Assembly: GCF_003634585.1 (NCBI RefSeq) | Contig: NZ_RBLG01000001.1 | Location: 620,001 to 684,000, forward strand | Direction of reading: 5' to 3' | Origin: Gillisia mitskevichiae | Lineage (GTDB): Bacteria > Bacteroidota > Bacteroidia > Flavobacteriales > Flavobacteriaceae | DNA length: 64,000 nucleotides | In this document: in pieces, positions 3,244-36,770 of the stretch | Layout of the letters: every line of letters starts with the position of its first letter | Numbering within the stretch: position 1 is the first letter of the stretch | Position numbers and translations under genes: made by a program | The notes under the pieces: generated by a model | What the model was told of the DNA's origin: nothing | Database searches by the model: none | The model's input: only the letters and a program-made list of their open reading frames with translations

Positions 3244-3906
3244 TTACTTGCGTTTATCTTCAGCCCCTTTATCAAAGGCAACCAAATTAAAAAGTTCACG
3301 CATTCGGCTACGTACCCGATTCCCATAGCGTTCTTCCAGTTCCTCTGCGTTGAGATTGGTAGTTGCGTGGGTTTTTACCTTGCCTTTGGTCTGAACAAAT
3401 AATTCATAGCGCGATAGCAAAACTTCGCCCATAACGTTTAGGTCTTTGCCATAAAACCGACCTGCGGGTTCGACACCTAAATCGTCGAAACAGTAAAACT
3501 TCGTGTTGCCATATTCTTCAACGGTTTTGAAACCTAAATGGTTAAAACTGAAGGTTACATTCCGGCAGGGAATCATTTCATAGGGGCGTTGCAGCGGTAC
3601 AATGTGGCGCAGTAATTTCATTAAACTTGTTTTGCCACATCCCACGGGTCCGGAAAGCAAAATGCCTTTTTCTGGGTCGATGCCGTTCTTTTTGCAGTTT
3701 TCTTTATCGCGGACAAAATAATTGCAAAGCTTCAGGACTATTGCTTCATCTTGGTCGTAGATTTTAAATTTATCGCCAAAAAGCAGCTTCCCTTTTGCGT
3801 TCAGGTAAATTAAAATTTTTGGGAAATCGTAGAGAATGCTTTTGCCATCAAAGTTCCCGAGCGCATATTCAACGCCACCTTCGGTTATTTTAGAGGGGTT
3901 GTCCAT
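3244..3906 (-). CDS. DnaC/IstB-like AAA+ ATPase, probable helicase loader
   Basis: AAA+ ATPase of about 220 residues. Walker A is GPVGCGKTS at about residue 97, Walker B is YCFDDLG, and a C-terminal RVRSRMRELFNLVAF segment resembles the arginine-finger region of DnaC-like loaders. The ATG at 3906 (MDNPSKITEGG) is preferred over an open frame reaching 4122 because the second copy starts at exactly this Met. It overlaps the end of the rep-like gene by 17 bp in both copies. The pairing of a DnaD-like initiator with a DnaC-like loader suggests a replication function for the element. It could instead serve a targeting role of the IstB kind, but no transposase is present. Confidence 0.75.
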   Translation of the reverse strand: MDNPSKITEGGVEYALGNFDGKSILYDFPKILIYLNAKGKLLFGDKFKIYDQDEAIVLKLCNYFVRDKENCKKNGIDPEKGILLSGPVGCGKTSLMKLLRHIVPLQRPYEMIPCRNVTFSFNHLGFKTVEEYGNTKFYCFDDLGVEPAGRFYGKDLNVMGEVLLSRYELFVQTKGKVKTHATTNLNAEELEERYGNRVRSRMRELFNLVAFDKGAEDKRK

Positions 3907-4642
3907 AGTCTTTGTTTTTACTGGTTCGCAGGTTGTCCTTGATTTGGGACGCTTGTTTTTTGTTTGGTTTGTTTTCCTCGGCATATAATTCTGTTCTGTC
4001 CATCCAGTTTGTGGCCAAGGCACGCCAATCTCTAATTTCATTTCCATCACTCGTTTGCCAGTTCCGGGTTTCATAATGCTCAAAGAATTTTTTTCCTTCA
4101 TCAGCATTAAAACCTTTTTCAATAAAAAAATCTATTACCGCCTGCCAGCCCTTTGGTTGTTTTATATTGTTTACTTGTTTGGTATTGTTTATAGTAGATA
4201 CCAATGCTTGTCCACTGGTGGGACGGTGCGAGTCCACAGCTTGTCCATTATTGGGATGGTGCTGGTACACTACTGGTTCTTCAATGGGACGGTAGTGTTC
4301 CGCAAGCTGTTCTAATTTGGGACTGTACCGTCCCGTATCAGGTTCATCACTTGTCCCCAGAATGGCCATCTTGATTTTGCTGCCCTTATACGGATTGTTG
4401 GAAGGGAAGTACGATAGGTATTGCCAAGAATCTAATTCCACAATGCATCTATGATATGTGGACTTAGAGCCTATTTTGGCACAACGCATCAAGTCTCTAC
4501 GGTTTACGTAGAATTCATCCATAAATCGGCAACTGTTCCATTCTTGGAACAGTGCCATATAAAGGCTTATGTGCGTTGGATTGAGGCGGTCATCAAAAAA
4601 GAACTTTTCAAAAGCCGCATTTAGTAGCTTTATATAGTTCAT
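3890..4642 (-). CDS. Rep-like protein with central 11-residue repeats
   Basis: A 250-residue protein in three parts. Residues 1-100 look like a winged-helix DNA-binding domain (FYVNRRDLMRCAKIGSKSTYHR). Residues 105-148 are four tandem 11-residue repeats with pattern x-[YH]-x-P-x-x-x-[QP]-x-x-x. Residues 160-225 (WQAVIDFFIEKGF, DWRALATNWMDR) resemble a DnaD-type C-terminus. It is followed by a DnaC-like ATPase with a 17-bp overlap and preceded 3 bp upstream by an HTH gene. The architecture recalls RepA_N-type initiators of Gram-positive plasmids, in which the origin lies inside rep; that comparison is inference. A transcriptional regulator is the alternative. Confidence 0.55.
   Translation of the reverse strand: MNYIKLLNAAFEKFFFDDRLNPTHISLYMALFQEWNSCRFMDEFYVNRRDLMRCAKIGSKSTYHRCIVELDSWQYLSYFPSNNPYKGSKIKMAILGTSDEPDTGRYSPKLEQLAEHYRPIEEPVVYQHHPNNGQAVDSHRPTSGQALVSTINNTKQVNNIKQPKGWQAVIDFFIEKGFNADEGKKFFEHYETRNWQTSDGNEIRDWRALATNWMDRTELYAEENKPNKKQASQIKDNLRTSKNKDYGQPL
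4206..4338. repeat. Four 33-bp-period repeats inside rep-like gene
   Basis: GGGAYKGT boxes occur at 4220-4227, 4253-4260, 4286-4293 and 4319-4326, each exactly 33 bp after the last. They are embedded in units that often begin GCTTGTCC or a variant. The last box is part of an imperfect palindrome, GGGACTGTACCGTCCC (4319-4334). On the coding strand they yield the 11-residue repeats of the protein. The second copy keeps four boxes with the same spacing. Iteron-like in appearance. Confidence 0.7.
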
Positions 4643-4645
4643 CTT

Positions 4646-4930
4646 TTAAGAATTTTGCTTGTGCTGCACTCGATTTGAGTTCATTACATCTTGAATTTCC
4701 TCTGCATCATAGTAGATAATGCCCCCAACTTTTGTGTATGGCAACGTTCCATTGATGCGAAGATTCTGTAATGTACCTGGACTGACTTGAAGCAAGTCCA
4801 TTACCTCGGAAGATTTTAAATATTTCTTGAGTTTTCCAGTTGCTTGTTTAGATAGAAGATTCTTGATGTCATCGAGCAATTCCATTTTAAATTCTCGAAG
4901 GTCGTCGGTGGTAATAATATTTGCTGGCAT
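4646..4930 (-). CDS. Helix-turn-helix (excisionase/MerR-like HTH_17) protein
   Basis: A 94-residue DNA-binding protein. Residues about 40-90 (YLKSSEVMDLLQVSPGTLQNL, then TLPYTKVGGIIYYDAEEI) form the HTH_17 fold typical of excisionase-like and small accessory regulators of Bacteroidota elements. The N-terminal part is a charged helix (DDLREFKMELLDDIKNLL). It is the first gene after the conserved noncoding region and a hairpin, and it ends 3 bp before the rep-like gene, so it probably begins the HTH-rep-ATPase transcript. The function could be excision, control of replication, or both; the sequence does not decide. Confidence 0.75.
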   Translation of the reverse strand: MPANIITTDDLREFKMELLDDIKNLLSKQATGKLKKYLKSSEVMDLLQVSPGTLQNLRINGTLPYTKVGGIIYYDAEEIQDVMNSNRVQHKQNS

Positions 4931-4951
4931 AATAGAACGGTTTTAAAGAAA

Positions 4952-4989
4952 GGGACTATCGTATCGATTTCAACTAATTTGATAGTCCC
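4952..4989. promoter_or_regulatory. Long inverted repeat upstream of HTH gene
   Basis: Perfect 9-bp arms GGGACTATC (4952-4960) and GATAGTCCC (4981-4989) are separated by 20 bp, ending 22 bp before the HTH start. In the second copy the arms change together (GGGCTA at 34369 and TAGCCC at 34399). The coupled change argues for a paired structure, either a leader hairpin or a protein-bound cruciform. Role unknown. Confidence 0.5.
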
Positions 4990-5000
4990 TGACCTGATTT

Positions 5001-5209
5001 GACTTTCGTTCTACAAATTTGGGATGGTTTATTGGATTTTAATCCCAAGTTGTACCCAAGTAGGGTGTTTTTATTTGCTCATTTTCAATGGTTTAAATTG
5101 GTTTGATTTAGAGGTGTCACTTTAAATCATCTATGCCAAATGATAATAGATAAAATTAATTTTATTTTTTCCCAAGTTAGACCCAACTTGGGAAAAAATT
5201 TAACATTTT
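5001..5209. promoter_or_regulatory. Highly conserved noncoding segment between rteC and HTH gene
   Basis: These 209 bp match 34417-34625 with four base differences by eye, whereas the adjacent HTH genes differ at many positions. No ORF spans it. It contains CCCAAGT direct repeats 11 bp apart (5044 and 5055), a third CCCAAGT at 5171 facing ACTTGGG at 5186, the 16-bp palindrome ATAAAATTAATTTTAT (5150-5165), and a terminator-like inverted repeat. It may hold an origin, a transfer origin or a dense operator array. Confidence 0.6.
5165..5198. terminator. Bidirectional terminator-like hairpin downstream of rteC
   Basis: Perfect 14-bp arms TTTTTTCCCAAGTT and AACTTGGGAAAAAA around a 6-base loop, 26 bp beyond the rteC stop. 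A stem flanked by T and A runs is the form of an intrinsic terminator working in both directions. The second copy (34581-34610) keeps the CCCAAGT/ACTTGGG stem with changes at its edges. It could also be an operator. Confidence 0.55.
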
Positions 5210-5223
5210 AAAAGCTCAAAATA

Positions 5224-6075
5224 TTAACCGTCCGTTTCTTCCATTCGCCTTAAAAGTGTGGCTTTTAGTCTATCGATAAACTTGGTTTGGTCGATTTTTC
5301 GTTCTCTAATTTCTAGAAAAGTTCTATATACATTTCCAAGTTTAAGTTCGAAAATGTCTTCACAAGCTGAAGCCATTTCTTTAATACCAGCTGTACCGCT
5401 TTTTATCGCTCCAGAAGCCTGTAAGGCATAAATCAATTCAATCAGGTCAGTTTTTGAAGCCGTCCAGCCAAGGCGCTCACCATTGGCTAAAGTGTTTAGT
5501 TTATTTGAAATACCGTAGGACTGATCTCTTAAATAACTTAATTCCTGAACGTAGTGATTTATTAAGAGGTCATAGGCCATAATTTTAGCAATTGCGTTAT
5601 CGTGACTTGTAGAAAATTCAGCATCAGTATAGAAATGGGAAGTGTCCGAAACCAGACTAATTTTATCTTTACCTCTTATAAAGTAAAATTCATCTAAAAC
5701 CGTAGATTCCTCCCGGTAATATTTAATAAAGTCGATATTCCGGCGATTACTTTCTTGAAGTTTTTGAATTTCTTCGTCTATAAAGATCTGTTGAGATTGA
5801 ATCGTTCCCGCCGGGCGATTAATCAAAAAATTATACAGTTTAGCATAGAATTTCAACCTGCTATAAACATACGGCTTGTGCTTTTTGAAAAATGTTATTT
5901 CATTTTCTTTATTTTTGAAATTATTATCTCTAATACATAGCCGAAGTTTTTGTAAATATTTCCTTGAGATTGTAATTCCCTTTTCAACTACATTGAAATC
6001 ATTAACGTTGGACTCCTCTATTTCTAATATTTCATTTTTGAAATCTTCTATTATTTTAAGTAAATCTTTTTCCAA
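5224..6075 (-). CDS. rteC: RteC-like regulatory protein
   Basis: Homolog of RteC, which in Bacteroides CTnDOT-type elements activates excision and transfer genes by DNA binding. No ATG is available near the N-terminus. A TTG at 6075 aligns with the TTG at 35491 of the second copy and gives 283 residues in both; an upstream GTG at 6114 would add 13 residues not conserved in copy 2. The central and C-terminal parts (HFYTDAEFSTSHDNAIAKIM; NGERLGWTASKTDLIELIYA) are nearly identical between copies. It lies upstream of the conserved noncoding region and the HTH gene, as expected for a regulator of element functions. A non-ATG start would keep expression low. Confidence 0.75.
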   Translation of the reverse strand: MEKDLLKIIEDFKNEILEIEESNVNDFNVVEKGITISRKYLQKLRLCIRDNNFKNKENEITFFKKHKPYVYSRLKFYAKLYNFLINRPAGTIQSQQIFIDEEIQKLQESNRRNIDFIKYYREESTVLDEFYFIRGKDKISLVSDTSHFYTDAEFSTSHDNAIAKIMAYDLLINHYVQELSYLRDQSYGISNKLNTLANGERLGWTASKTDLIELIYALQASGAIKSGTAGIKEMASACEDIFELKLGNVYRTFLEIRERKIDQTKFIDRLKATLLRRMEETDG

Positions 6076-6352
6076 ATTTAATCTGGGTTTAAATGTTAAT
6101 AAAATAAAACCCACATTATTGACAACTGTAATTTTGGGGTTTAAGAAATCGCATTTTGCATCTTAACATCGTTTCCAATACGACTTAATACAAAACACCT
6201 AAATCATTTGGTGTCATAAAGAGAGACTAGTTAAAATACACGCTCTATAAATGTTACTTTATTACCATTATTAGGCTTTTTAATTCGTTAGGTTTATTAT
6301 TACATTATATTCAAGCCTGTAAAAGTTTGAGGAACTCAAGTCTACGCATCTC

Positions 6353-25311: not shown

Positions 25312-26526
25312 TCAAAAATTAATGACGCTATCCAAGGCATTATCTGCATCTCTATGCATAAAGTTAGATTGATAATTTATTGTGGTAGTAATCGAAGAAT
25401 GTCTGTATAATTTTTGGAGCATATTAATTGGGATTTTATCTTCCGATATATTCCCAAATGTATGTCTTGCAATGTGCATCGTTACTTTTTTTGAAATTTT
25501 TGCTTTCTCAGCTACCGTAACTAAATATTTATTGAATTTCTTGTTGGCCGTTTTTGTTTTAGCATAGACATCTTTTGCATCTTGTAAATTTGCCTTTTTC
25601 ATTTCCGGAAATATAAAATCATCATCATTTTGTTTAATGTCCTGATAGTATTCCAAAATCGGAAATATTTTATCTGGGATTTTAAGGGATAACAATTTTG
25701 AATTCTTGTTCATTCGATAATGAAGCCGGGCGTCATAAATATCGGTCCAACGAATTTTCAATACGTCAGCTACCCGAATTCCGGCAAAATAAAAACTAAA
25801 AAGCCAAACATTTCTAGCGTGAGTTTCGTGGTCAGTCAAATTTTCAACGGATTCAAGTTTTATAACCTCATTTTTGGTAAGGCCTATTTTTTCGGTTTCA
25901 GGGAACTTAATCCGTATTTTATCTGAACCGAAGGGGTAGAGTTTTCTATCTACTATGCCCAATTTAATAGCTCTATTATAGATAGTTCTAATTACAATAA
26001 GATTATTTACTATCGACCTTTCTGACAGGTTGTGTTTTTTGCGGAGGTATGTTTTAAATCTCTTTAAAAAATTTTCATCAATTTCTTGAAAGGTAAGCTG
26101 CTTTGATGTGGAAAATTTTAAAACGTGATTAATTCTTGCTTTATCTGTTGAAAGCCTTGACAGCTTCTCGTTTGCCTCTAAATCATCAAGAAAATCTTGT
26201 GCCACTTCGAAAAAAGTAACTGATTCGGAAGAAGCATAAAGTTTCTCTTTTATTTGATTGGCCGAAATATCTTTTTTGCTCGACTGCAAATCAATCAGCA
26301 TTTTATTCGCCTCAGCTAATTTAGTACTAAGCAAACCATTTAATCTATCTGAGTAAGGGTGTGATTTTCTAACTCTAATATTTTTCCCATCCCAATCATT
26401 AGGATCAATATTATGACCTATATAATGATAATTTGAGCGACGGTTTTTTGTAATACGAATACAAAGAGGACAATGCCCTTCTTTATTAGGCTTTTTCCGA
26501 AGTACTATTTTTGCGTTTGATGCCAT
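25312..26526 (-). CDS. int: Tyrosine recombinase (integrase) of element A
   Basis: A 404-residue site-specific integrase. The N-terminus is an arm-DNA-binding domain (residues 1-100), residues 105-200 form a SAM-like core-binding domain, and the catalytic domain holds Arg251 (FAGIRVADVL), HIARH at 351-355, His376 (YRHSS) and the nucleophile Tyr385. It resembles integrases of Bacteroidota transposons and ICEs. It lies next to a truncated traG and immediately left of the inferred element end, with phased direct repeats upstream of the start, all typical of the integration module. The gene appears intact. Confidence 0.92.
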   Translation of the reverse strand: MASNAKIVLRKKPNKEGHCPLCIRITKNRRSNYHYIGHNIDPNDWDGKNIRVRKSHPYSDRLNGLLSTKLAEANKMLIDLQSSKKDISANQIKEKLYASSESVTFFEVAQDFLDDLEANEKLSRLSTDKARINHVLKFSTSKQLTFQEIDENFLKRFKTYLRKKHNLSERSIVNNLIVIRTIYNRAIKLGIVDRKLYPFGSDKIRIKFPETEKIGLTKNEVIKLESVENLTDHETHARNVWLFSFYFAGIRVADVLKIRWTDIYDARLHYRMNKNSKLLSLKIPDKIFPILEYYQDIKQNDDDFIFPEMKKANLQDAKDVYAKTKTANKKFNKYLVTVAEKAKISKKVTMHIARHTFGNISEDKIPINMLQKLYRHSSITTTINYQSNFMHRDADNALDSVINF

Positions 26527-26602: not shown

Positions 26603-27652
26603 TCAATTGACATTATATAAAATTAAATATATGTTAATCAGTTGATTATAATATGACTTACGGAAATTTGGTAGTAAATACGCTGGATTCTTGTCCCAGT
26701 AAACAATATTTAAATGACCACGGATAATCCGCGCATTGTCATCGGCATTGATCTGGTCAAGGATGTGCTGGATTTTTCCGAGTACCACTTTGTTCTGCGA
26801 ACCAAAGTTGGAGCTTTTGTTCAGTTCCTCTACTTTCTTATCGAGCAGCTTGCGCCATTTTTGTTTATCGTCCAGATATAGAATCTGATTGACAATGTGG
26901 TTCTCGTTTAGCGTAAGCCCTAAACCATCAATAAACCCTTGATGAAATACAAAATCGTCAGAAGTGAATTTCTCATTGGTCTTGCTGCTCTGTACACTTT
27001 CGCCAAAGCACAGTTCGCTGTTGATGGCTAGGGCATCAAAATAATTTTCGCCTATATTGACGTTTTTTCTTTCAAGTAAAATATCCGTATCAAAGCCTTC
27101 ATTGAAGCCATTGAAATAGCCATTCGTTAGATTTTGAATTGAATCCGCATCAAGTGGAGAAAATTCCATTTTACGGCTATTGTTGATAAAGGAAACCGAA
27201 TCGCTGACCGAGCCGATAAAGCGTCGCACGTTATCATCAAGTTCCCGGATAATGCTCTTGGAAACCTTTCGGAAGGGGTTGACATATTTGGGACTGTTAA
27301 GCGCTTTGTTCTTGGTCAGGATAAAGAACAGGAAACAGCGGTGCTCCATATATTCACGCCCTTTAAAATGATCGTGGGTCGCTTTTTCCAAAAAGGTTTT
27401 ATTGGGCAGTTGTTGCGAAGAATAGGATTTTTTCAAATAAATATCCTGCTTATGAACTACAGTTCCCACCGGCAACGACTTCAAAGCCTGAAACCAAGCC
27501 CCGTGCATATCCTCAAAATCCTTTTCGGACAAGGAATAGATCTCGGGCAGGTTGCCTTGGTAGCATAAGACCACATTGCCATTGTTGGCAAAAATGATAT
27601 TGTCCTGGATATCCGCGATGGGTCGGTATGCCGAAAGGTTAATCTTGTTCAT
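26603..27652 (-). pseudogene. traG: Truncated TraG (N-terminal 319 residues plus junction tail)
   Basis: Codons 1-319 match the intact traG at 1-1757 through the shared segment NIVYW. The next 30 codons (beginning DKNPAYLLPNFRK) have no similarity to that gene and end at a TGA in AT-rich DNA beside the integrase. The Walker A motif and everything after it are missing, so the product cannot drive conjugation. The overlap with traF (14 bp) is unchanged. Interruption by the integrating element is the most direct explanation; the missing 3' part would be expected beyond the left end of the inner element. Confidence 0.88.
26635..26648. other. Short inverted repeat near element boundary
   Basis: TAATCA and TGATTA flank a 2-bp centre, about 50 bp inside the point where traG homology resumes. 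It may be a recombinase or accessory-protein site near the element end. Its AT-rich nature makes chance occurrence possible. Confidence 0.25.
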
Positions 27653-27956: not shown

Positions 27957-28244
27957 TTAGACTACGATTCCGATTAGGTAAGTGAAAATGCCGACCACAG
28001 CTCCTGCAATCAATACAAAAACGAGAACACGGGTAATCCCTTTTTTGAGATCGGCGTTTTCCCCGAAGAAATGTCCCGCGTTGAACAGGAAACCGATTAG
28101 GAATATTACACCAAGGATTATTGGAAAAATTGTCCTGATGGTGTTGGAAACATCGTCAACTGAATCTTCGATTCCTCCAATTTGTGCAAAAAGCGATGTT
28201 GAGAGCAACGAAAGAAAAGTTGCCAAGTAGATTGATTTTTTCAT
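27957..28244 (-). CDS. traE: TraE-type (DUF4134) conjugal transfer protein, second copy
   Basis: 95 residues with signal peptide and two membrane helices. It differs from the copy at 2029-2316 by one conservative residue although many codons differ silently. Unlike the first copy, 33 bp separate it from traF. The near-identity of the protein suggests that both copies were under selection until recently. Confidence 0.87.
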   Translation of the reverse strand: MKKSIYLATFLSLLSTSLFAQIGGIEDSVDDVSNTIRTIFPIILGVIFLIGFLFNAGHFFGENADLKKGITRVLVFVLIAGAVVGIFTYLIGIVV

Positions 28245-28318
28245 AACGGAATAGTTTAAGTTTTTGATTCGTTTTCGTTAAGGGAAAAGTACATATATTT
28301 ATATTCAAACACCTGAAA

Positions 28319-28350
28319 ATCAAATATTTGTGAATAAAATATTATTTGAT
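28319..28350. promoter_or_regulatory. Palindromic operator candidate, second copy
   Basis: Same 32-bp inverted repeat as at 2391-2422 (arms ATCAAATA and TATTTGAT), identical across all 32 positions while bases on both sides differ. It lies between divergent traE and amidase. Confidence 0.5.
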
Positions 28351-28433
28351 AGTAATTGAATTCCGTTGCCATTATTTGACATCAAATTCTATGGATTTTG
28401 GAAGACGAGTTGTTAATAACCCGAAAAGTGAAA

Positions 28434-29081
28434 ATGAAAAAAGTGCTCAAAAACGTCAGTTTTGTGATTTTGCTTCTAAAAATGTGTTTCATTTTTGGTC
28501 AAGAAACGAGTGCTCAAAAACGAATTGTAATTGATGTTGGACACGGTGGAAAAGATTCTGGTGCAATTGGAAAAAATGGTATCCAAGAAAAGGATGTGGC
28601 TTTGGATATTTCAAACGCCATTTTAAAGCTGAATAATGAATTGGAAAAACCTTTGGATATTTATTTGACCAGGTATAGTGATACGCTTATTTCGTTATCT
28701 GATCGAACTAAATTGGCCAATGCTTTAGATACGGATGTATTTATTTCCTTGCATTGCAATCATTCAGATAATGCTAACGTAAGAGGCATTGAAGTTTATG
28801 TGGCAAATACTAAATCTCAGTTTTCAGACCTTTCAACCTTGCTTGCTTATCTGTTGCAGGCTTATTTTAAAAAAGAATTGGGTTTTGAGAGTAGAGGCGT
28901 GAAGTTTGCGAATTTTCAGGTGCTACGGGAAAATGTTGATTACCGCCCTGCTGTTTTAGTAGAAGTTGGATTTCTTACCAACGAAGATGAAGGATTCTAT
29001 TTTTTGCAGCCTCCTAAAATCAAGGCCGTGGCGATGGCTATTTTAAAAGGAATCTATAACTACTCAAATAAACGATTATGA
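28434..29081 (+). CDS. N-acetylmuramoyl-L-alanine amidase, second copy
   Basis: 215 residues with signal peptide (MKKVLKNVSFVILLLKM) and the zinc-amidase motifs VIDVGHGG, SLHCNHSDN and VEVGFLTN. The first half is close to the copy at 2506, but between residues about 115 and 165 and at the C-terminus they are barely alike (for example NTKSQFSDLSTLLAYLLQAY here). VEVGFLTNEDEG is the more typical family ending, so this copy looks closer to the ancestral form. It drives into the small ORF by ATGA overlap. Confidence 0.85.
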   Translation: MKKVLKNVSFVILLLKMCFIFGQETSAQKRIVIDVGHGGKDSGAIGKNGIQEKDVALDISNAILKLNNELEKPLDIYLTRYSDTLISLSDRTKLANALDTDVFISLHCNHSDNANVRGIEVYVANTKSQFSDLSTLLAYLLQAYFKKELGFESRGVKFANFQVLRENVDYRPAVLVEVGFLTNEDEGFYFLQPPKIKAVAMAILKGIYNYSNKRL

Positions 29082-29182
29082 AAGACTTATTCATCGAAAC
29101 AATTAAAAGCATCCGAGAAGTATTGAAAGTTTTTTTGTCAGAAGTTCTAAGGCAGATTTATGACCTAAAAAATAAGAAATGA
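29078..29182 (+). CDS. Small conserved ORF coupled to amidase (34 aa)
   Basis: Starts at the amidase stop by ATGA overlap and reads MKDLFIETIKSIREVLKVFL, seven residues longer than the counterpart at 3144-3227. The shared MKD-F-E-K-S pattern and amphipathic helix support a translated product. A basic tail (DLKNKK) is unique to this copy. The mer cargo begins right after it. Confidence 0.5.
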   Translation: MKDLFIETIKSIREVLKVFLSEVLRQIYDLKNKK

Positions 29183-29224
29183 GTATTTTTATACATCAAG
29201 TTCATCACCAGATAAAAAAGCATA

Positions 29225-29881
29225 ATGGAAACTCAAATGTACGGAACAAAGGAAGAACAGGAAAACGCTATTCGTTACTACGATAAGCTTTCCGTCATTT
29301 ACGATTACATCTCAAATTGGTATTATAAAAAAGCCAGGAACTATGCCATCAAAGAGCTTCAACTCAAAAATGGACAGACCTTATTAAACGTGCCCTGCGG
29401 AACAGGGGTCAACTTTAAATATTTCAACGAATATTTGAACAATACAGGACTTATCATTGGCATTGACCTGTCGAGTGGAATGCTTGATAAGGCCAAACAA
29501 AAAATAGAAAAAAACGGTTGGAAGAATATCGAAACGGAATTAAACGATGCTACTAAAATTGACCGAAATTGGCTTGATTATCGAAACGAACAAATTACCG
29601 TTGACGCTGTTTTTTGCGACCTTGGTTTGTCAGGGCTGCCCGAATGGCGAAACATAATCGACAATATGATTTCAATTTTAAAACCAAACGGTAGAATTGT
29701 TATTCTGGACTGGTATCTTGAAAAACCAAGTTTGAAGGGCGATTTTGTAAAATGGATTGGGAAAGGCGAAGTGGACAGACCAATATACCAATATTTAGAG
29801 ACGAAGGTTTCCAATTTTAAAGTGGATGATAGTTTTAATTATGGAGGTGTATTTGTCGCTTCCGGTAGTAAACCCGAATAA
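29225..29881 (+). CDS. Class I SAM-dependent methyltransferase
   Basis: A 218-residue methyltransferase of the Rossmann type. Motif I is LLNVPCGTGVNFKYF, motif II region LIIGIDLSSGMLDKAK, and a later AVFCDLGLSGLPEW and ILKPNGRIVILDWYL match UbiE/COQ5-like enzymes. It opens the plus-strand mer-type cluster, 150 bp before the ArsR gene, so it may have its own promoter. A role in methylating a metal or metalloid is possible, but the three Cys expected for arsenite methyltransferase are not present, so the substrate is unknown. Confidence 0.75.
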   Translation: METQMYGTKEEQENAIRYYDKLSVIYDYISNWYYKKARNYAIKELQLKNGQTLLNVPCGTGVNFKYFNEYLNNTGLIIGIDLSSGMLDKAKQKIEKNGWKNIETELNDATKIDRNWLDYRNEQITVDAVFCDLGLSGLPEWRNIIDNMISILKPNGRIVILDWYLEKPSLKGDFVKWIGKGEVDRPIYQYLETKVSNFKVDDSFNYGGVFVASGSKPE

Positions 29882-30035
29882 ACCCTATACACTGTTTATG
29901 AAAAACCATTCACCTTAAATTTACTTTTTTGTATCACCAGCCTACTCAAAAGCTATCAAATTAAAAAATCTAAGTTTTTTTTGTACTTCATTAGTTTAGT
30001 GTTTGCTTAAATAAGAAATAAATGTATATTTGGCT

Positions 30036-30410
30036 ATGGAAAATAATTCTTGCATAAGACAACAAGCCGATATTGAACAAATAAATCGTTGCAAAGACAC
30101 GGTTTCAGAATTAAATGAATCGTTCGACTATTTAGCGAATGGACTTTCATTGGTCGGGAATAGCGTAAGACTTAAAATACTTTATCTACTCTTTGAGGAA
30201 AAAAGACTTTGCGTTTGTGATTTAAGCGATATTCTCGGAATGAATATTTCTGCCATTTCTCAACATTTAAGAAAAATGAAAGACCGAAATCTATTAGAAA
30301 CCGATAGAGAAGCCCAAACGATTTTTTACTCACTCACAGCTGAATACGAAAAAATGCTAAACCCATTTTTTGAGATACTTGATAAAAACAAAATTTTAGA
30401 AACGATATGA
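30036..30410 (+). CDS. ArsR/SmtB family metalloregulator
   Basis: A 124-residue winged-helix repressor. The recognition helix region reads LGMNISAISQHLRKMKDRNL, and the metal site is probably the CVCDLSD at the third helix with N-terminal Cys, as in ArsR and CmtR types. ATG at 30036 is preferred over a TTG at 30030. It overlaps the MerTP gene by ATGA. A TTTG at 30002 and TATATTTG at 30025 have Bacteroidota promoter spacing but would leave almost no leader, so the promoter is uncertain. It likely controls the mer-type operon in place of MerR. Confidence 0.85.
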   Translation: MENNSCIRQQADIEQINRCKDTVSELNESFDYLANGLSLVGNSVRLKILYLLFEEKRLCVCDLSDILGMNISAISQHLRKMKDRNLLETDREAQTIFYSLTAEYEKMLNPFFEILDKNKILETI

Positions 30411-31009
30411 AAAGTGACAACAAATTAATTGGTGCAGGTTTGTTAACTGCAATTACAGCTTCATTATGTTGTATTACGCCAGTATTGGCTCTAATCGCAG
30501 GAACAAGCGGAATTGCTTCAACATTTTCTTGGATAGAACCTTTTAGACCTTATCTAATTGGAATGACAATTTTAGTTCTTGCTTTTGCTTGGTATAAAAA
30601 ACTAAAACCTCAAAAAGAAATTGACTGTGAATGCGAAACGGAAGAGAAACCAAAATTCATTCAATCAAAAACCTTTTTAGGAATTGTAACTGCATTTGCA
30701 ATTATAATGTTGGCTTTCCCGTACTATTCAGGAATTTTTTACCCAAACACGGAAAAGCAAATAATCGTAGTTGACAAATCGGATATTAAAACAACAGAAT
30801 TTACAATCAGCGGAATGACCTGTGTCAGTTGTGAAGAACACGTCAAACACGAAGTAAATAAACTAAACGGAATTGTAGATACAAAAGCGTCCTACGAGAA
30901 TGGAAACGCAATCATTGAATTTGACAAATCCAAATCTAATGAAACGGAAATCGAGAAAGCAATTAACTCAACAGGTTATAAAGTAACCGACAAAAAAGAA
31001 ATCAATTAG
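30407..31009 (+). CDS. merT: MerTP-type mercuric transport fusion protein
   Basis: A 200-residue fusion. Residues 1-65 and 90-115 are membrane helices of the MerT type with the vicinal pair Cys21-Cys22 (LCCITPVLALIAG) that binds Hg(II). A Cys-bearing loop (DCECETEE) sits at about 73-80. Residues 130-200 are a MerP-like HMA domain with GMTCVSC at 136-142. It would carry mercuric ion inward to the reductase encoded next. It overlaps arsR by ATGA and is one base from the following gene. Confidence 0.88.
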   Translation: MKSDNKLIGAGLLTAITASLCCITPVLALIAGTSGIASTFSWIEPFRPYLIGMTILVLAFAWYKKLKPQKEIDCECETEEKPKFIQSKTFLGIVTAFAIIMLAFPYYSGIFYPNTEKQIIVVDKSDIKTTEFTISGMTCVSCEEHVKHEVNKLNGIVDTKASYENGNAIIEFDKSKSNETEIEKAINSTGYKVTDKKEIN

Positions 31010-31010
31010 T

Positions 31011-32357
31011 ATGAAAGAATATGATGTATTTATAATTGGTTCGGGAATGGCAGGAATGACCATCGCAAATAAATGTGCCTCAAAAGGGCTAAAAGTAGGA
31101 ATAACGGATGAATTACCTTATGGTGGCACCTGTGCTTTGAGAGGTTGTGACCCAAAAAAAGTGATTATAGGCGCTACGGAAGTTCGAGACTTTGCTAATA
31201 GGCTTAAAGGAAATGGTATTGATACCATACCTAAAGTCAATTGGAAGGACATTATGGCCTTTAAACAATCCTTTGTGGATGAAATGCCACCAAAAATTGA
31301 AAAAGGATATAAAAAGAACGGAATAGACACCTTTCATAGTTCAGCAAAATTCCTGTCAGAAAACACATTGGAAGTTGGAACAGACAAAATAAAGGCTAAC
31401 AAAATTGTAATCGCATCGGGTTCCAAGCCAAGGGTTTTAGAATTTGAAGGTGGTCATTATGCAAAATCCAGTACCGATTTCTTGAATTTAGCAAAATTGC
31501 CAAAATCTTTAGTATTCATCGGTGGTGGATATATCGCTTTTGAGTTTGCACATATAGCGGCTCGATGCGGAGCAGAAGTCACTATTGTTCATCGTAGAGA
31601 AAATCCCTTGGAAAATTTTGAACAGGATATTGTAAAACATCTTGTTTCTGCCACAAAAGAGTTAGGCATAAAACTCATTCTTAATACAGATGTTACGGCT
31701 ATTGAGAAAGTGGATAGCCAGTATCGAGTAAAAGGTAAATCTCAAGAGAAAACAGCATATTTTGAAGCTGAAGCTGTTTTTAACTCTGCCGGACGACCAC
31801 CAGCCATATTTGATTTGGAATTAGACAAAGCGAACATAGCCTTTACTAATAAAGGTGTTACAGTGAACAAATACTTGCAAAGTACTTCAAACCCTCATAT
31901 TTATGCAGCAGGCGATGCTGCAGATTCAGAAGGTTTGCCCTTAACGCCAGTTGCAGTTCTGGAAGGTCATACGGTTGCTTCAAATATTATTAAAGGCAAT
32001 TCTAAAGAAATAAGTTATCCGCCAATGCCAACAGTGGTGTTTACGTTACCAACTATGGCTTCTGTTGGATGTACTGAATCGAAAGCGAAAGAGCTGAATT
32101 ACAATATTCGAATTAATTATAAGGAGGTTGGTAATTGGTTCAATGCCAAGCGTTTGAATGTAGAAGAATATGCGTTCAAAACTATTATTGACGAAGAAAC
32201 TCAAACAATTTTGGGAGCGCATTTAATCGGACCACATACAGAAGAAACAATAAATCTCTTTGCAATGGCCATAAAAACAAAGATGAAGGTTAATGATATT
32301 AGAACAATGATTTTCTCATATCCAACTTTGGCTTCGGACATACCACATATGCTATAA
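31011..32357 (+). CDS. MerA-like FAD/NAD(P) disulfide oxidoreductase
   Basis: A 448-residue flavoprotein. FAD site is GSGMAGMTIANKC, redox disulfide Cys41/Cys46 in GGTCALRGCDPKK, NAD(P) site FIGGGYIAFEFAHIAARCG, and a C-terminal dimerisation domain ending TLASDIPHML. Compared with classic MerA it lacks both the N-terminal HMA domain and the C-terminal Cys pair that hands Hg(II) to the active site; also the usual VGCVPSK is RGCDPKK, and the catalytic HxxxxE of lipoamide dehydrogenase is missing. The neighbours make mercury the likely substrate. A related glutathione-reductase-like activity cannot be excluded. Confidence 0.75.
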   Translation: MKEYDVFIIGSGMAGMTIANKCASKGLKVGITDELPYGGTCALRGCDPKKVIIGATEVRDFANRLKGNGIDTIPKVNWKDIMAFKQSFVDEMPPKIEKGYKKNGIDTFHSSAKFLSENTLEVGTDKIKANKIVIASGSKPRVLEFEGGHYAKSSTDFLNLAKLPKSLVFIGGGYIAFEFAHIAARCGAEVTIVHRRENPLENFEQDIVKHLVSATKELGIKLILNTDVTAIEKVDSQYRVKGKSQEKTAYFEAEAVFNSAGRPPAIFDLELDKANIAFTNKGVTVNKYLQSTSNPHIYAAGDAADSEGLPLTPVAVLEGHTVASNIIKGNSKEISYPPMPTVVFTLPTMASVGCTESKAKELNYNIRINYKEVGNWFNAKRLNVEEYAFKTIIDEETQTILGAHLIGPHTEETINLFAMAIKTKMKVNDIRTMIFSYPTLASDIPHML

Positions 32358-32369
32358 TAAAAAAATTGA

Positions 32370-32576
32370 ATGGAAATTATATTAAAATCAGAAATTACTT
32401 GTCCAAACTGCGGACATAAAAAAGTAGAAGATATGCCAACAAACGCTTGTCAATTCTTTTACGAGTGTGAGAATTGTAAAACGGTTCTAAAACCAAACGA
32501 AGGAGATTGTTGTGTTTATTGCTCTTATGGAACTGTACCTTGTCCGCCAATTCAAGAAAACAAAAGTTGTTGCTAA
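32370..32576 (+). CDS. GDCCVxC domain protein
   Basis: A 68-residue Cys-rich protein (11 Cys). It has a zinc-ribbon-like start (CPNCGHKK), a second pair (CENCK), the name-giving GDCCVYC at 45-51 and a CC end. All positions use Cys codons, so this is not the selenoprotein form known in some bacteria. Such proteins occur in mer-type operons of Bacteroidota and are thought to bind metal. It ends the plus-strand cargo and faces the ATPase gene 82 bp away. Confidence 0.85.
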   Translation: MEIILKSEITCPNCGHKKVEDMPTNACQFFYECENCKTVLKPNEGDCCVYCSYGTVPCPPIQENKSCC

Positions 32577-32658
32577 AAAATTCGCCGACTCTGACCGCCA
32601 AATAGTATATAGATGCCCAGGCACAAAGAAAGTACTCTTTGAAAAAAATATTTTAAGT

Positions 32659-33321
32659 TCACTTTCTTTTATCCCCAGCCCCTTCATCAAAGGCTATCAA
32701 ATTAAACAGTTCCCGCATCCGGCTACGGACACGGTTTCCGTAACGTTCTTCCAGTTCCTCAGCGTTTAGGTTTGTAGTTGCGTGAGTTTTGATTTTATGC
32801 TTGGTTTGAAGGTAAAGTTCATATCTCGAAAGTAAGACTTCACCCATCACATTCAGGTCTTTACCGTAGAACCTTCCGGCAGGTTCTACGCCCAGATCGT
32901 CAAAACAGAAAAACTTCGTATTTCCATAGTCTTCAATGGTTTTAAAACCAAGATGATTAAAACTGAATGCCACATTTCGGCAGGGGATCATTTCATAAGG
33001 TCTTTGCAATGGCACTAAATGCCGTAAAAGTTTCAATAAACTGGTTTTCCCGCACCCTACTGGGCCCGAAAGTAAAATACCTTTGTCAACATCGATCTGA
33101 AATTTTTGGCAGTTTTCCTTGTCCTTGATGAAGTAGGAACAGAGCTTTAGCAAAATATCCTTGTCCTCTTCATAAATTTTGAATTTCTTTCCAAAGAGGA
33201 GCTTTCCCTTGGCATTCAGATAAATTAGTATTCTCGGGAAATCGTAAAGCACGCATTTCCCGTCAAATTTGCCGAGCGAATATTCCACGCCGCCTTCGGT
33301 TATTTTAGAGGGGTTGTCCAT
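32659..33321 (-). CDS. DnaC/IstB-like AAA+ ATPase, second copy
   Basis: 220 residues, ATG at 33321 (MDNPSKITEGG), the Met that fixed the start of the first copy. Walker A GPVGCGKTS, Walker B FCFDDLG and the RVRSRMRELFNLIAF end are conserved; differences cluster at residues 45-75. It overlaps the rep-like gene by 17 bp. In this copy the mer-type operon lies downstream instead of the amidase end. Confidence 0.75.
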   Translation of the reverse strand: MDNPSKITEGGVEYSLGKFDGKCVLYDFPRILIYLNAKGKLLFGKKFKIYEEDKDILLKLCSYFIKDKENCQKFQIDVDKGILLSGPVGCGKTSLLKLLRHLVPLQRPYEMIPCRNVAFSFNHLGFKTIEDYGNTKFFCFDDLGVEPAGRFYGKDLNVMGEVLLSRYELYLQTKHKIKTHATTNLNAEELEERYGNRVRSRMRELFNLIAFDEGAGDKRK

Positions 33322-34057
33322 AATCCTTGGTTTTAGTGGTTTTAAGGTTGTCCCGATTTTGGGACGCTCCCTTTTTGTTTGGTTTGTTTTCTTCGGTAAA
33401 TAATTCGGTTCTATCCATCCAATTTTTGGCTAGAGCCCGCCAATCACGTATTATTTTTCCATCGCTTGTTTTCCAATTGTTGGCTTCATAGTGCGCAAAG
33501 AATTTTTTTCCTTCATCAGCATTAAAATTTTTTTCAACAAAAAAATCTAAAACGGCCTGCCTGCCCTTTGGTTGTTTATTAATGTTTACTTGTTTGGTAT
33601 TGTTTATATTAGATACCAATGCTTGTCCACTCAAGGGACGGTGCGGGTACACAGCTTGTCCGTTGGTGGGATGGTGTTGGTACACTACTGGTTCACGTAT
33701 GGGATGGTACCGTTCCGCAAGCTGTTCCAATTCGGGATTGTACCGTCCCATATCCGGTTCATCACTTGTCCCGATAATGGACATCTTGATTTTGCTACCT
33801 TTGTAAGGATTGTTCGATGGAAAATAAGATAGATAGTTCCACGAGTGCAGGTCGGTAACACAGCGATGATAGGTCGATTTAGAACCTATTTTAGCCACGC
33901 GCATCAACTCTCGACGGTTCACAAAAAACTCATCGGCAAAACGGCTGCTGTTCCACTCTTGGAACAGCGCCATATACAGGCTGATATGGGTCGGGTTCAA
34001 GCGGTCATCGAAAAAGAATTTTTCAAAAGCCGCGTTGAGTAGCTTTATATAATTCAT
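33305..34057 (-). CDS. Rep-like protein with central 11-residue repeats, second copy
   Basis: 250 residues, exactly the length of copy 1. The N-terminal HTH part and the C-terminal DnaD-like part (RQAVLDFFVEKNF, DWRALAKNWMDR) are well conserved, and the repeats read RYNPELEQLAE, RYHPIREPVVY, QHHPTNGQAVY and PHRPLSGQALV. The spacing of the repeats in DNA (33 bp) is unchanged. Conservation of a tandem repeat length in a linker between two domains is unusual if it were only a flexible spacer. Replication initiator is the favoured but unproven role. Confidence 0.55.
   Translation of the reverse strand: MNYIKLLNAAFEKFFFDDRLNPTHISLYMALFQEWNSSRFADEFFVNRRELMRVAKIGSKSTYHRCVTDLHSWNYLSYFPSNNPYKGSKIKMSIIGTSDEPDMGRYNPELEQLAERYHPIREPVVYQHHPTNGQAVYPHRPLSGQALVSNINNTKQVNINKQPKGRQAVLDFFVEKNFNADEGKKFFAHYEANNWKTSDGKIIRDWRALAKNWMDRTELFTEENKPNKKGASQNRDNLKTTKTKDYGQPL
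33621..33752. repeat. Four 33-bp-period repeats inside rep-like gene, second copy
   Basis: GGGAYKGT boxes (the last box is GGGATTGT) start at 33635, 33668, 33701 and 33734, each 33 bp apart, as in copy 1. Bases between the boxes vary more than the boxes. The last one again lies in an imperfect palindrome (GGGATTGTACCGTCCC). Confidence 0.7.
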
Positions 34058-34060
34058 CGC

Positions 34061-34345
34061 TTAAGAATTTAATCCGTGCTGCACACGGTTTGCAGACATT
34101 ACATTCTGGATTTCTTCGGCATCGTAATAGATGATACCGCCCACTTTCGTGTATGGCAATGTGCCATTGACACGAAGATTTTGAAGTGTTCCCGGACTGA
34201 CCTGAAGCAGTTCCATTACATCGGAAGATTTCAGGTACTTTTTAAGTTTACCGGTTGCTTGTCGGGATAGGAGCTTTTTAATGTCATCGAGCAATTCCAT
34301 TTTGAATTCCCGAAGATCGTCTGTGGTAATGATACTTGTTGGCAT
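34061..34345 (-). CDS. Helix-turn-helix (excisionase/MerR-like) protein, second copy
   Basis: 94 residues with the same HTH_17 core (YLKSSDVMELLQVSPGTLQNL) as the copy at 4646-4930. Many silent changes and a few replacements near the C-terminus separate the two. It again precedes the rep-like gene by 3 bp. Two active copies could cross-regulate both elements because the recognition helices are identical. Confidence 0.75.
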   Translation of the reverse strand: MPTSIITTDDLREFKMELLDDIKKLLSRQATGKLKKYLKSSDVMELLQVSPGTLQNLRVNGTLPYTKVGGIIYYDAEEIQNVMSANRVQHGLNS

Positions 34346-34368
34346 AATAGAACGGTTTTAAATGAAAA

Positions 34369-34404
34369 GGGCTACCGCCTCAGTCTAAACTAATTTGATA
34401 GCCC
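34369..34404. promoter_or_regulatory. Inverted repeat upstream of HTH gene, second copy
   Basis: Arms GGGCTA (34369-34374) and TAGCCC (34399-34404). Compared with copy 1 both arms have changed in step, keeping the pairing, while the stem is shorter. Confidence 0.45.
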
Positions 34405-34416
34405 CTCGCAGGATTT

Positions 34417-34625
34417 GACTTTCGTTCTACAAATTTGGGATGGTTTATTGGATTTTAATCCCAAGTTGTACCCAAGTAGGGTGTTTTTATTTACTCATTT
34501 TCAATGGTTTAAATTGGTTTGATTTAGAGGTGTCACTTAAAATCATCTATGCCAAATGATAATAGATAAAATTAATTTTATTTTTTCCCAAGTAAGACCC
34601 AACTTGGGAAGAAATTTAACATTTT
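34417..34625. promoter_or_regulatory. Highly conserved noncoding segment, second copy
   Basis: Counterpart of 5001-5209 with four differences in 209 bp. It keeps the phased CCCAAGT repeats, the ATAAAATTAATTTTAT palindrome and the CCCAAGT/ACTTGGG stem (34587-34608) that may terminate rteC. Confidence 0.6.
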
Positions 34626-34639
34626 TAAAAATGAAAATA

Positions 34640-35491
34640 TCAACCGTCCGTTTCTTCCATTCGCCTTAAAAGTGTTGCTTTTAGTCTATCAATAAACTTG
34701 GTTTGGTCGATTTTCCGTTCTCTTATTTCGAGAAAAGTTCTATAAACGTTACCAAGATTAAGTTCAAAAATATCTTCACAAGCTGATGCCATTTCTTTAA
34801 TACCAGCTGTACCACTTTTTATTGCGCCAGATGCCTGTAATGCATAAATTAACTCAATTAGGTCTGTTTTTGAAGCAGTCCAACCAAGTCGCTCACCGTT
34901 TGATAGAGTATTCAGCTTATTCGGTATGCCGTATGACAAATCCCTTAAATTACTTAACTCTTCAACGTAATGGCTTATTAATAGGTCATAGGCCATAATT
35001 TTGGCAATTGCATTATCGTGGCTTGTGGAAAATTCAGCATCTGTATAAAAATGAGAAGTGTTTGATACCAAGCTAATTTTATCATTTCCTCGCAGAAAAT
35101 AGAATTCATCCAGAAGTTCAGAATCCTCTCTATAATATTTAATGAAATCTATATTCCGTCGATTACTTTCTTGTAGCCTATTTATTTCTGAATCAATAAA
35201 TTCCTGTTGAGATTTTATTGTTCCCGCAGGTCTATTTATCAAGAAATTGTAGAGTTTGGCATAAAATTTCAGTCTGCTATAGATGTAAGGTTTATGCTTT
35301 TTAAAGAATATTATTTCATTCTTTTTATCTACGAATTCATTTTCCCTTACACAGATGCGTAATTTCTGCAAGTATTGTCTTGAAATAGAAATACCTTGTT
35401 CAACATTGTTGAAATCGTTTAGATTAGATTCCTCAACTACTTTTATTTCCTCTTTGTAATTGTCTAGTATTATATGAATTAACTTATGCAA
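34640..35491 (-). CDS. rteC: RteC-like regulatory protein, second copy
   Basis: 283 residues from a TTG start at 35491 (read as MHKLIHIILDNYKEEI). No ATG is in frame upstream before a stop, and the TTG aligns with a TTG in copy 1. The last 150 residues are almost the same in both copies, while the N-terminal 80 differ more. It is followed by the conserved noncoding segment. It ends the conjugation module; the cargo with MFS and copper genes lies upstream. Confidence 0.75.
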   Translation of the reverse strand: MHKLIHIILDNYKEEIKVVEESNLNDFNNVEQGISISRQYLQKLRICVRENEFVDKKNEIIFFKKHKPYIYSRLKFYAKLYNFLINRPAGTIKSQQEFIDSEINRLQESNRRNIDFIKYYREDSELLDEFYFLRGNDKISLVSNTSHFYTDAEFSTSHDNAIAKIMAYDLLISHYVEELSNLRDLSYGIPNKLNTLSNGERLGWTASKTDLIELIYALQASGAIKSGTAGIKEMASACEDIFELNLGNVYRTFLEIRERKIDQTKFIDRLKATLLRRMEETDG

Positions 35492-35555: not shown

Positions 35556-36770
35556 TTATGGGGGATTTTTAAAAAAGAACAGACAACCAATAGCGAGCAA
35601 AACAATGCTACCAGCAATTATGAAAGGATAGTAAAAACCGCCTGCAATCAGCCAAGTTCCTAAAACGGGGCCTAGAATCTGACCAATACTATTGGTCGAA
35701 CTCTGAATAGAAATATTCCTGCCAGTATTTTTCTTTGATATTAATGAAACCGCAGAGAGCAAATTTGGTGTTACCATAGCGCCTCCAGCAGCAAAAACAA
35801 CGATTAATCCATAGACTAAAAATTCATTGTTAAAAAATGGAAAGGCAATCAAGGATAAACCAGATATTAATAACCCTAAAGCAATTTGTTTCTTTGTTGA
35901 TAAAAACTTCTCTCCATAAGTAGCGAACACAGGTTGTAAAACAGCCATTATTGAACCACATAGCATAAAACCAATACCAACTTGATTACTATTAAATCCT
36001 AATTCATCTTTTCCGTAGATTGAAAAGACAGTTTCAAATAGCGTCACCACAAATTGGATAACAAACGATAGCACTAGTAATACGATAAAATATTTAGTAA
36101 ATGTGAACCGCAAACTCACTTTTCGTGTTGTGAACTTATGTACGCGAGCGGTGTTTTTTAACCATTTCATCACAACCAAAAGGACAATCAATCCTAGTAG
36201 TGCAGCGAATAAAAAGGGCACTGAAAATCGGTCTAAATGTAGCAGGCCTATTGTATATTTTATATGAATATCAGTTTGGGACAGAAAGCCGCCAATGACA
36301 GGGCCGAAAATAACACCAGAGCTAATGGCAACACCAGACCAGGCCATTATTTTTGTTCTACGTTTTTCAGATGTAATATCACTTAAATATGCATTGCTAA
36401 CTGGAATAACTGATGACGTAAAAATTCCACCAAAAATTCGAGCGATATATAGCATTGTCAAGGATGTGGCTAGGCCGGTAAGTAATTGCATAATTACAAA
36501 ACCGATTAGTCCACAAATGATAATAGGTTTCCTGCCGTATCTGTCCGATAGTTTTCCCCAAACCACTACGAATAGTAACTGAAAAAATGGATAAATGCTT
36601 GTGAGCAATCCAATATGGAAATTGATAAGGTCGGTGTCAAGATTGTCTTTTAAAGCTAATCTTTCGGTATAGTAAGGAAGGGTTGGCAATAATATACCAT
36701 AGCCCAACATCACTACAAACAAACTCAATAGAATTAAAAATATCCTGTTGAGTTTTTCTTTTCTATCCAT
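35556..36770 (-). CDS. MFS drug exporter, TetA-like
   Basis: A 404-residue major-facilitator antiporter with twelve predicted helices. Motif A is WGKLSDRYGRKP between helices 2 and 3, and motif C-like glycines (AISSGVIFGPVIGGFL) mark drug:H+ antiporters. Resemblance to the Tet(A) class is general, so tetracycline is one of several possible substrates. It abuts the copper ATPase stop (36771) without spacing, so it is co-transcribed with the copper gene. It is the last gene of the array before rteC. Confidence 0.8.
   Translation of the reverse strand: MDRKEKLNRIFLILLSLFVVMLGYGILLPTLPYYTERLALKDNLDTDLINFHIGLLTSIYPFFQLLFVVVWGKLSDRYGRKPIIICGLIGFVIMQLLTGLATSLTMLYIARIFGGIFTSSVIPVSNAYLSDITSEKRRTKIMAWSGVAISSGVIFGPVIGGFLSQTDIHIKYTIGLLHLDRFSVPFLFAALLGLIVLLVVMKWLKNTARVHKFTTRKVSLRFTFTKYFIVLLVLSFVIQFVVTLFETVFSIYGKDELGFNSNQVGIGFMLCGSIMAVLQPVFATYGEKFLSTKKQIALGLLISGLSLIAFPFFNNEFLVYGLIVVFAAGGAMVTPNLLSAVSLISKKNTGRNISIQSSTNSIGQILGPVLGTWLIAGGFYYPFIIAGSIVLLAIGCLFFFKNPP

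Follow-up and report, generated by a model that had tools for sequence, protein, structure and literature searches.

A putative replication origin inside a rep-like gene carried by an RteC-type integrative and conjugative element in Gillisia mitskevichiae

The window analysed here is a 64,000-nt stretch of the Gillisia mitskevichiae genome (NZ_RBLG01000001.1, positions 620,001-684,000; assembly GCF_003634585.1; genome 3.59 Mb), and coordinates below are counted from its first letter. It holds two copies of a module in which genes for an RteC regulator, a helix-turn-helix (HTH) protein, a rep-like protein (hereafter Rep) and a DnaC-like helicase loader follow one another on the minus strand:

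3244-3906, minus strand: DnaC-like helicase loader gene, copy 1 (phrog_50, E 1.5e-19; start at ATG)
3890-4642, minus strand: rep-like putative initiator gene, copy 1 (250 aa; without a Pfam or NCBIfam family)
4646-4930, minus strand: HTH_17 (excisionase-like) gene, copy 1 (94 aa; 3 bp upstream of rep)
5224-6114, minus strand: RteC regulator gene, copy 1 (PF09357, E 1.2e-73)
25312-26526, minus strand: tyrosine integrase gene, likely that of the first element
32659-33321, minus strand: loader gene, copy 2 (translation similar to copy 1)
33305-34057, minus strand: rep-like gene, copy 2 (250 aa)
34061-34345, minus strand: HTH gene, copy 2 (translation similar to copy 1)
34640-35491, minus strand: RteC gene, copy 2 (PF09357, E 1.5e-73)

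The two rep-like proteins share 82% amino-acid identity. In copy 1, the loader gene lies downstream of rep and overlaps its end by 17 bp, and the phrog_50 match bears out the original prediction of a DnaC-like loader next door. The 94-aa HTH_17 protein has excisionase-like PHROG matches, and RteC comes next. Given the Tra-type genes and the tyrosine integrase at 25312-26526 farther off, we assign module 1 to an RteC-type integrative and conjugative element (ICE) of the kind found in Bacteroidota, with RteC, Tra genes and a tyrosine integrase all present. VirB2/VirB3-like genes (matches under Pfam cut-offs) lie farther from the module, and the ICE also has TraG, TraM, DUF4138, coupling-protein and DUF5712 genes (these last two in locus L180) and bears metal-related genes. 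Its interior includes an OLD-family TOPRIM ATPase/nuclease gene adjoining a UvrD-like helicase gene (L180:8712-10910 and L180:6829-8715), with an Eco57I-type methylase gene alongside; the OLD/UvrD-like pair, which we take to be Gabija-like, resembles a defence island.

Module 2 looks like the remnant of a second, decayed ICE in tandem with the first. It is preceded by a short DUF3875 gene (26603-27652, 349 aa), presumably a TraG N-terminus, and by VirB2-like, amidase and mercury genes, and past it lie chromosomal-looking genes. This ICE-like block (26603-27652 plus 27957-35491) starts directly after the first element's integrase. An MFS efflux gene at 35556-36770 is tetracycline-transporter-like, yet far under cut-offs (171 of 475 bits).

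Two features of the region upstream of the HTH gene are recorded here as separate observations. The gap between RteC and HTH carries two CCCAAGTT...-type repeats 127 bp apart in both copies (5038-5065 and 5165-5192; 34454-34481 and 34581-34608), one of which in copy 1 is a dyad with 15-bp perfect arms; both halves occur in 24/79 distinct upstream segments, and these repeats are likely regulator sites. In addition, the leader of the HTH gene (4951-4990) holds a 10-bp perfect hairpin, AGGGACTATC/GATAGTCCCT, and by eye the copy 2 leader has a seemingly similar hairpin with changed letters.

The rep family had matches in 126/397 genomes of the bacterial family and, some of them partial, in 53/395 across the phylum; 213 relatives come from named genomes, and among the 80 best of these flavobacterial names predominate (taxonomy by name). 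Its neighbourhood is very stable. Counting loci with room for the neighbour, and setting aside L001 and L002 (the window's own), L112 (same record as L153) and the far loci L155-L179, the loader is next to rep in 117/117 and 32/32 (149 in total), the HTH gene is beside it in 116/117 and 31/33, and RteC is in its neighbourhood in 78/86 and 29/33, with rep mostly downstream of RteC.

Inside each rep-like gene, the plus strand carries three kinds of element:

4205-4338, plus strand: iteron-like array, copy 1 (33-bp period)
4220-4227, 4253-4260, 4286-4293 and 4319-4326, plus strand: GGGAYKGT boxes, copy 1
4207-4213 and 4240-4246, plus strand: CTTGTCC in the copy 1 array
4319-4334, plus strand: near-palindrome at box 4, GGGACTGTACCGTCCC, with a reverse-strand box at 4327-4334
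4084-4204, plus strand: AT-rich stretch, copy 1, beside the array (73% and 67% AT in its halves; TGTTT repeats)
4157-4191: 18-bp repeat in the AT-rich stretch, copy 1
3933-3950, plus strand: distal box TTGTCC-N7-GGGAC, copy 1, near the 3' end of rep and beyond the AT-rich stretch
33620-33753, plus strand: array, copy 2 (boxes at 33635, 33668, 33701 and 33734)
33499-33619, plus strand: AT-rich stretch, copy 2 (75% and 68% AT; 18-bp repeat at 33572-33606)
33348-33365, plus strand: distal box, copy 2, TTGTCCCGATTTTGGGAC

The original prediction had four GGGAYKGT boxes at 33-bp steps in both genes, and all eight are where it placed them, on the strand it gave. The window contains 18 GGGAYKGT sites against 4.5 expected, a number reached by 0/100 shuffles. 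Across the whole 3.59-Mb genome, GGGAYNGT pairs at exactly 33 bp occur six times, only in the two rep-like genes, and the reversed-pattern control gave none. Whole 33-bp units are moderately alike (64-76% identity to the reference copy), and a score threshold of 30 in Tandem Repeats Finder gave no 33-bp array, so we regard only the boxes and CTTGTCC as tight elements. On the plus strand, in the direction leading away from the AT-rich side, the unit approximates CTTGTCCA-N5-7-GGGAYGGTR, then GTCC. The boxes are partly palindromic and spaced by about three helix turns.

For comparisons between genes we used 85 distinct homologous genes, including the window's own two; the 75 that are 753 bp long were used for the unit consensus, an antisense-frame test and counts of boxes at the four places. 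In these full-length genes, GGGAYNGT stands at four places in 63, three in 10 and two in 2, and the stricter GGGAYKGT at four places in 50, three in 22 and two in 3. Seven of the 85 genes fall short of this length by exactly 33 bp and have an array of three boxes, so the 11-residue repeats of the original prediction are real units.

For Rep, AlphaFold2 (56 sequences) predicts a winged helix and a helical C-terminus joined by a disordered linker. The N-terminal domain (residues 1-92) is confident, with block pLDDT of 77-94, the linker (98-158) is disordered, and the C-terminus (166-223) is moderately confident, with helices predicted at 166-175, 180-192 and 206-223. The predicted linker is encoded by the array together with the beginning of the AT-rich stretch. 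We call the N-terminal domain a winged helix because its listed Foldseek matches include initiators, origin-recognition-complex chains and MarR-type regulators, in agreement with the HTH domain originally predicted. Against the PDB, no Foldseek match reached E <= 0.001, and the initiators 4pql, 5kbj (titled 'Structure of Rep-DNA complex') and 4pt7 ('Structure of initiator'), which we take to be RepA_N proteins, were weak matches (E 0.07-0.22) in a list that holds many winged helices. By sequence, the PDB gave just three chance-level matches. No named family was found for Rep in Pfam (E up to 0.1) or NCBIfam, the RepA_N domain (PF06970) giving no match, and no O-type family was found in Pfam, NCBIfam or PHROGs. 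The C-terminus matches two PHROGs, both of the 'function unknown' class; the label DnaD-like, which the original prediction gave to this part, thus found no named profile and remains plausible.

Eight short homologs of 176-187 aa (L146, L147, L145, L124, L125, L123, L149 and L151) are without the C-terminal helical domain and retain the linker DNA and the final KNYxEPL-type residues. The overall count of homologs 'without' this domain, 12/141, is an upper bound because the crude pattern used overlooks intact domains (e.g., L114), and some loci are duplicated, so a few of the 141 genes are in the set twice.

What is conserved in the array, the AT-rich stretch and the distal box is the DNA, and this conservation is independent of the protein. 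In the box codons the residue varies and the third base is fixed. For example, codon 107 is AAT in 64, AGT in 13, GAT in 4 and CAT in 4 of the 85 genes, and the codons listed for position 118 are CAT (48), CGT (25), TAT (8), TGT (1) and CTT (1). CCC is found at codon 108 in 85/85 genes, and codons 108 and 141 are invariably CCC where present. Relative to the amino-acid expectation, synonymous difference is 1.37 for codons 1-102, 0.41 for codons 103-146, 0.16 for codons 147-159 and 0.86 for codons 160-250.

The speed of synonymous sites in the boxes had been set beforehand as the test of the original prediction, and these sites proved to be slow. Parsimony on 83 genes (the 75 of 753 bp plus 8 divergent ones above 70%) gave 0.67 third-position steps per codon in the boxes versus 5.7 in other array codons, with 9.7 in codons 1-50 and 13.2 in codons 51-95. 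Linked genes were used as a control in 73 gene sets, drawn from the 75 genes of 753 bp. Third-position steps divided by first-plus-second-position steps give a ratio of 0.46 for the array versus 3.4-3.9 for the linked genes (HTH 3.43, loader 3.44-3.86) and 3.36 for rep codons 1-95. This ratio is lowest of all in codons 147-161 (0.32), which form the array-side end of the AT-rich stretch, and then rises to 0.64 in codons 162-180 and 1.69 in codons 181-225 before a second dip to 0.90 in codons 226-250. All 396 44-codon segments that avoid rep codons 99-182 have higher ratios than the array, the lowest being 1.11. Poor overall divergence does not explain the low ratio, since the array has more second-position steps (3.91) than rep codons 1-95 (1.01).

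Synonymous-codon randomisation points the same way, with the caveat that the sequences are related and their counts non-independent, so null comparisons for the 85-gene set overstate significance: GGGAYKGT occurs 331 times versus 35 in the 85 genes (39 versus 6 in 40 divergent genes), CTTGTCC 197 versus 53 (49 versus 13) and the GRTACCANNGCTTGTCC junction 80 versus 1.8 (20 versus 0.6). Moreover, the coding-strand word GNACAAGY is used in two reading phases, encoding GQA-type and GTS-type residues (140 and 78; 56 and 19, with a single case in the third phase), which is unexpected under protein-level selection and therefore counts against selection on the protein only.

The constraint is not confined to the array. 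Conserved third codon positions in the AT-rich stretch cover codons 147-180, and TTGTC-N6-8-GGGAC near the gene end, which coincides with the second ratio dip, is found in 77/85 genes (codon-randomised mean 1.2, maximum 4), in 13/56 non-core genes (null 0.5) and in 6/33 representatives (null 0.2). Altogether, constrained DNA spans ~3930 to ~4340; the interval of the original prediction, 4206-4338, is too small. The AT-rich region and the distal box both go beyond that prediction, as do the parallels with phages lambda and SPP1 drawn below. The AT-rich stretch is a candidate DNA unwinding element, its instability reaching only the 94.7-96.0th percentile in this AT-rich window.

A fairer set for judging how far these elements extend is the 33 representatives below 70% identity; its counts of repeat excess, motifs and distal boxes omit far homologs <205 aa and L172/L173. 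Repeated linker 7-mers number 415 in this set versus 131 in synonymous randomisations (highest of 300: 178). Taken singly, 17/33 have a significant repeat excess (p < 0.05) and 16/33, including L169 and L175, have none. At least two RCTTGTNY words occur in 20/33 and the junction pattern in 18/33; CTTGT-type words are absent in 8/33, and 5/33 (L159, L168, L169, L175 and Freya) have neither a CTTGT-type word nor GGGAYNGT. Among these five, L168 and Freya each show their own repeats (p 0.003, the lowest value the test can give) and L159 is borderline (p 0.05). The L168 repeats are strong, of long period and of different sequence (score 59 versus 17, p 0.003), and L170:1437-2400, from another family of the same class, has a linker with five GGGAYNGT at different spacing.

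Homologs at 29-77% identity mostly keep the AT-rich stretch and often a GRTACCANNGCTTGTCC-like junction. Their direct-repeat period varies between 33 bp, 45 bp and ~12 bp, the last seen by eye (the period script began at 15 bp and gave 24 and 36). The second refuting condition set for the original prediction, homologs with other periods and without box conservation, therefore holds only by half: below ~70% identity, periods of 45 bp or ~12 bp appear and many homologs are without GGGAYKGT, but the CTTGTCC core and its AT-rich neighbour persist in most, above the codon-randomised null.

Related modules also occur on other replicons. The 25.3-kb Marivirga plasmid p1, typed as non-mobilizable, has a 29% homolog (annotated 'hypothetical protein') with an HTH gene before it and, after it, a loader-like frame that looks interrupted. 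In Polaribacter phage Freya_1, gene 55 (annotated 'transcriptional regulator') is a homolog of the Rep N-terminus at 50% identity and is followed by a 'DNA replication protein' with 26.5% loader similarity; in its linker DNA, 12-bp repeats resembling ACTACTATTATC adjoin AT-rich TTGTTTA repeats. All 11 phage records with matches are Polaribacter phage Freya, and no relative was found in the viral contigs searched.

We think it likely, from sequence evidence, that the repeat block serves as the part of an origin to which the initiator binds, and that this origin lies within the initiator gene of an RteC-type ICE. This reading is based on the DNA-level conservation of array, AT-rich stretch and distal box, the predicted disordered linker and the loader that is adjacent in all 149 loci with room, and it is further backed by the related modules in the Marivirga plasmid and Freya_1 and by an iteron number that varies as it does in lambdoid O genes. 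Counting against it, 16/33 representatives have no single repeat excess and the distal box occurs in just 6/33. After excision, Rep would bind the boxes via its winged helix, the AT-rich stretch would melt, and the Rep C-terminal domain together with the neighbouring loader would recruit the host replicative helicase. The excised circle would then replicate by theta mode before transfer or reintegration, and RteC would presumably switch the operon on along with excision. The resident ICE may be without any autonomous replication, and Bacteroides conjugative transposons are described as copied by rolling circle (PMC10865816).

The alternative that survives best, though we consider it unlikely, is an intragenic operator through which Rep or another element protein controls rep/loader transcription, with no origin function. 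Winged-helix proteins are often repressors, and GGGAYKGT occurs upstream of the HTH gene in 12/79 distinct segments (opposite orientation in 4/79). However, four phased boxes with AT-rich repeats, a distal box and a loader neighbour are an origin-like anatomy, and the upstream box is confined to that minority, so we rejected it as a general feature. An operator is also compatible with an origin because initiators frequently autoregulate.

It is far less probable that, instead of acting as a vegetative origin, the array is an oriT or some other site of transfer or recombination. It does sit in an ICE with transfer genes, but the DUF5712 and coupling-protein genes, likely the mobilisation locus, are ~17-20 kb off in L180, the array's neighbours are the loader, the HTH protein and RteC, and similar modules are found in a phage (Freya_1) and in a plasmid typed as non-mobilizable (Marivirga p1).

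We give slightly less credence still to an RNA element, i.e., a structured mRNA or antisense RNA. Folding surpasses that of shuffled sequences on both strands of copy 1 (z -5.1 and -4.6) and less so on those of copy 2 (-1.8 and -3.9), which we attribute to boxes that are repeated and partly palindromic. The two window copies fold differently, however, the covariation term is -0.08 for the sense and -1.87 for the other strand (28 diverse arrays of 83), both partners have changed in just 1/19 pairs (sense) and 2/32 pairs (other strand), and there is no Rfam match at gathering scores.

Highly improbable, too, is a low-complexity protein linker shaped only by protein-level selection or codon bias: the linker is predicted to be disordered and is repetitive, but the codon-randomised nulls and the third-position ratio with its linked-gene controls rule this out, as does one DNA word read in two phases. 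An opposite-strand overlapping gene (ORF 4055-4315, 33572-33832) constraining third positions is barely credible, since this frame, open in both window copies, has internal stops in 33/75 genes and a TTG start in 55/75, and within codons 103-161 interruptions break the three antisense frames in 62, 44 and 74 of these 75 genes.

With an intragenic origin as the preferred reading, a broader picture can be proposed, which we hold to be evenly poised between right and wrong. Many Bacteroidota ICEs would be transient theta replicons, in which the RteC operon couples excision to a two-sided intragenic origin (array, AT-rich stretch and distal box), and phages and plasmids of the phylum would have the module as well. 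Because the short homologs lose the C-terminal domain and keep the origin DNA, the gene may persist in them chiefly as an origin and DNA-binding domain, with the loader recruited otherwise.

If the intragenic-origin reading is right, the members of the Rep family are replication initiators that carry their own origins, and RteC-type ICEs would replicate as circles, with consequences for their copy number, stability and spread; small origins would also become available for the genetics of environmental Bacteroidota. Such intragenic origins can be found by locating where synonymous sites cease evolving. Intragenic origins and initiator/loader pairs are already known, and among the open-access PubMed Central matches listed (titles and abstract openings), neither the Rep family nor an intragenic origin in a Bacteroidota ICE is described.

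Several known systems invite comparison. CTnDOT has an RteC regulator and is described as being nicked at oriT and then replicated (PMC10865816). The ICE here resembles CTnDOT-type Bacteroides ICEs in having RteC, and also conjugative-transposon TraM and DUF4138. CTnDOT likewise has TraM and DUF4138 genes. Integrative and mobilizable elements (IMEs) of Firmicutes such as Tn6104 carry a replisome organizer and DnaC pair, and their replication after excision had never been studied, according to one review (PMC5704250). They are similar as integrated mobile elements with an initiator and loader pair, and they differ in phylum and in that no intragenic origin is named in the passages of PMC5704250 on which this comparison draws.

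The original prediction had likened the arrangement to RepA_N plasmids, a comparison that is apt as a way of working, while family membership is not supported by sequence and is only weakly suggested by structure. In the pSK41-type rep of staphylococci, four Rep boxes lie centrally, in the linker that joins a DNA-binding N-terminus to a DnaD-like C-terminus, and the linker protein is dispensable (PMC5703833). Here, too, the boxes lie where rep encodes the linker, and they are conserved at the DNA level. Unlike that Rep, the ICE protein has no RepA_N profile match (Foldseek likeness is weak, at E 0.07-0.22), and the ICE version has an adjacent loader gene on an element that integrates.

In phage SPP1, oriL consists of direct repeats and an AT-rich DNA unwinding element, with the repeats within gene 38 and the loader gene 39 next (PMC6316719). 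Intragenic repeats, an AT-rich part and a loader next door are shared with the ICE; SPP1 differs in having a second origin, oriR, elsewhere, and the comparison is by description, profile scans of the ICE Rep having given no named replisome organizer.

In phage lambda, iterons and an AT-rich tract lie in the middle of the initiator gene and the loader gene follows (PMC7466680, PMC6022878), and iteron number varies between the O genes of lambdoid phages (PMC7466680). The ICE matches lambda O/P in anatomy and DNA conservation, with iterons and an AT-rich tract inside the initiator gene and the loader directly downstream. It differs in its distal box beyond the AT-rich tract and in its proteins: the profile search for O-family membership of Rep was negative, and the loader is, we assume, an AAA+ DnaC-like protein rather than a lambda P. 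By analogy, the best reading is that the ICE origin would work like lambda O/ori, SPP1 oriL or pSK41 Rep.
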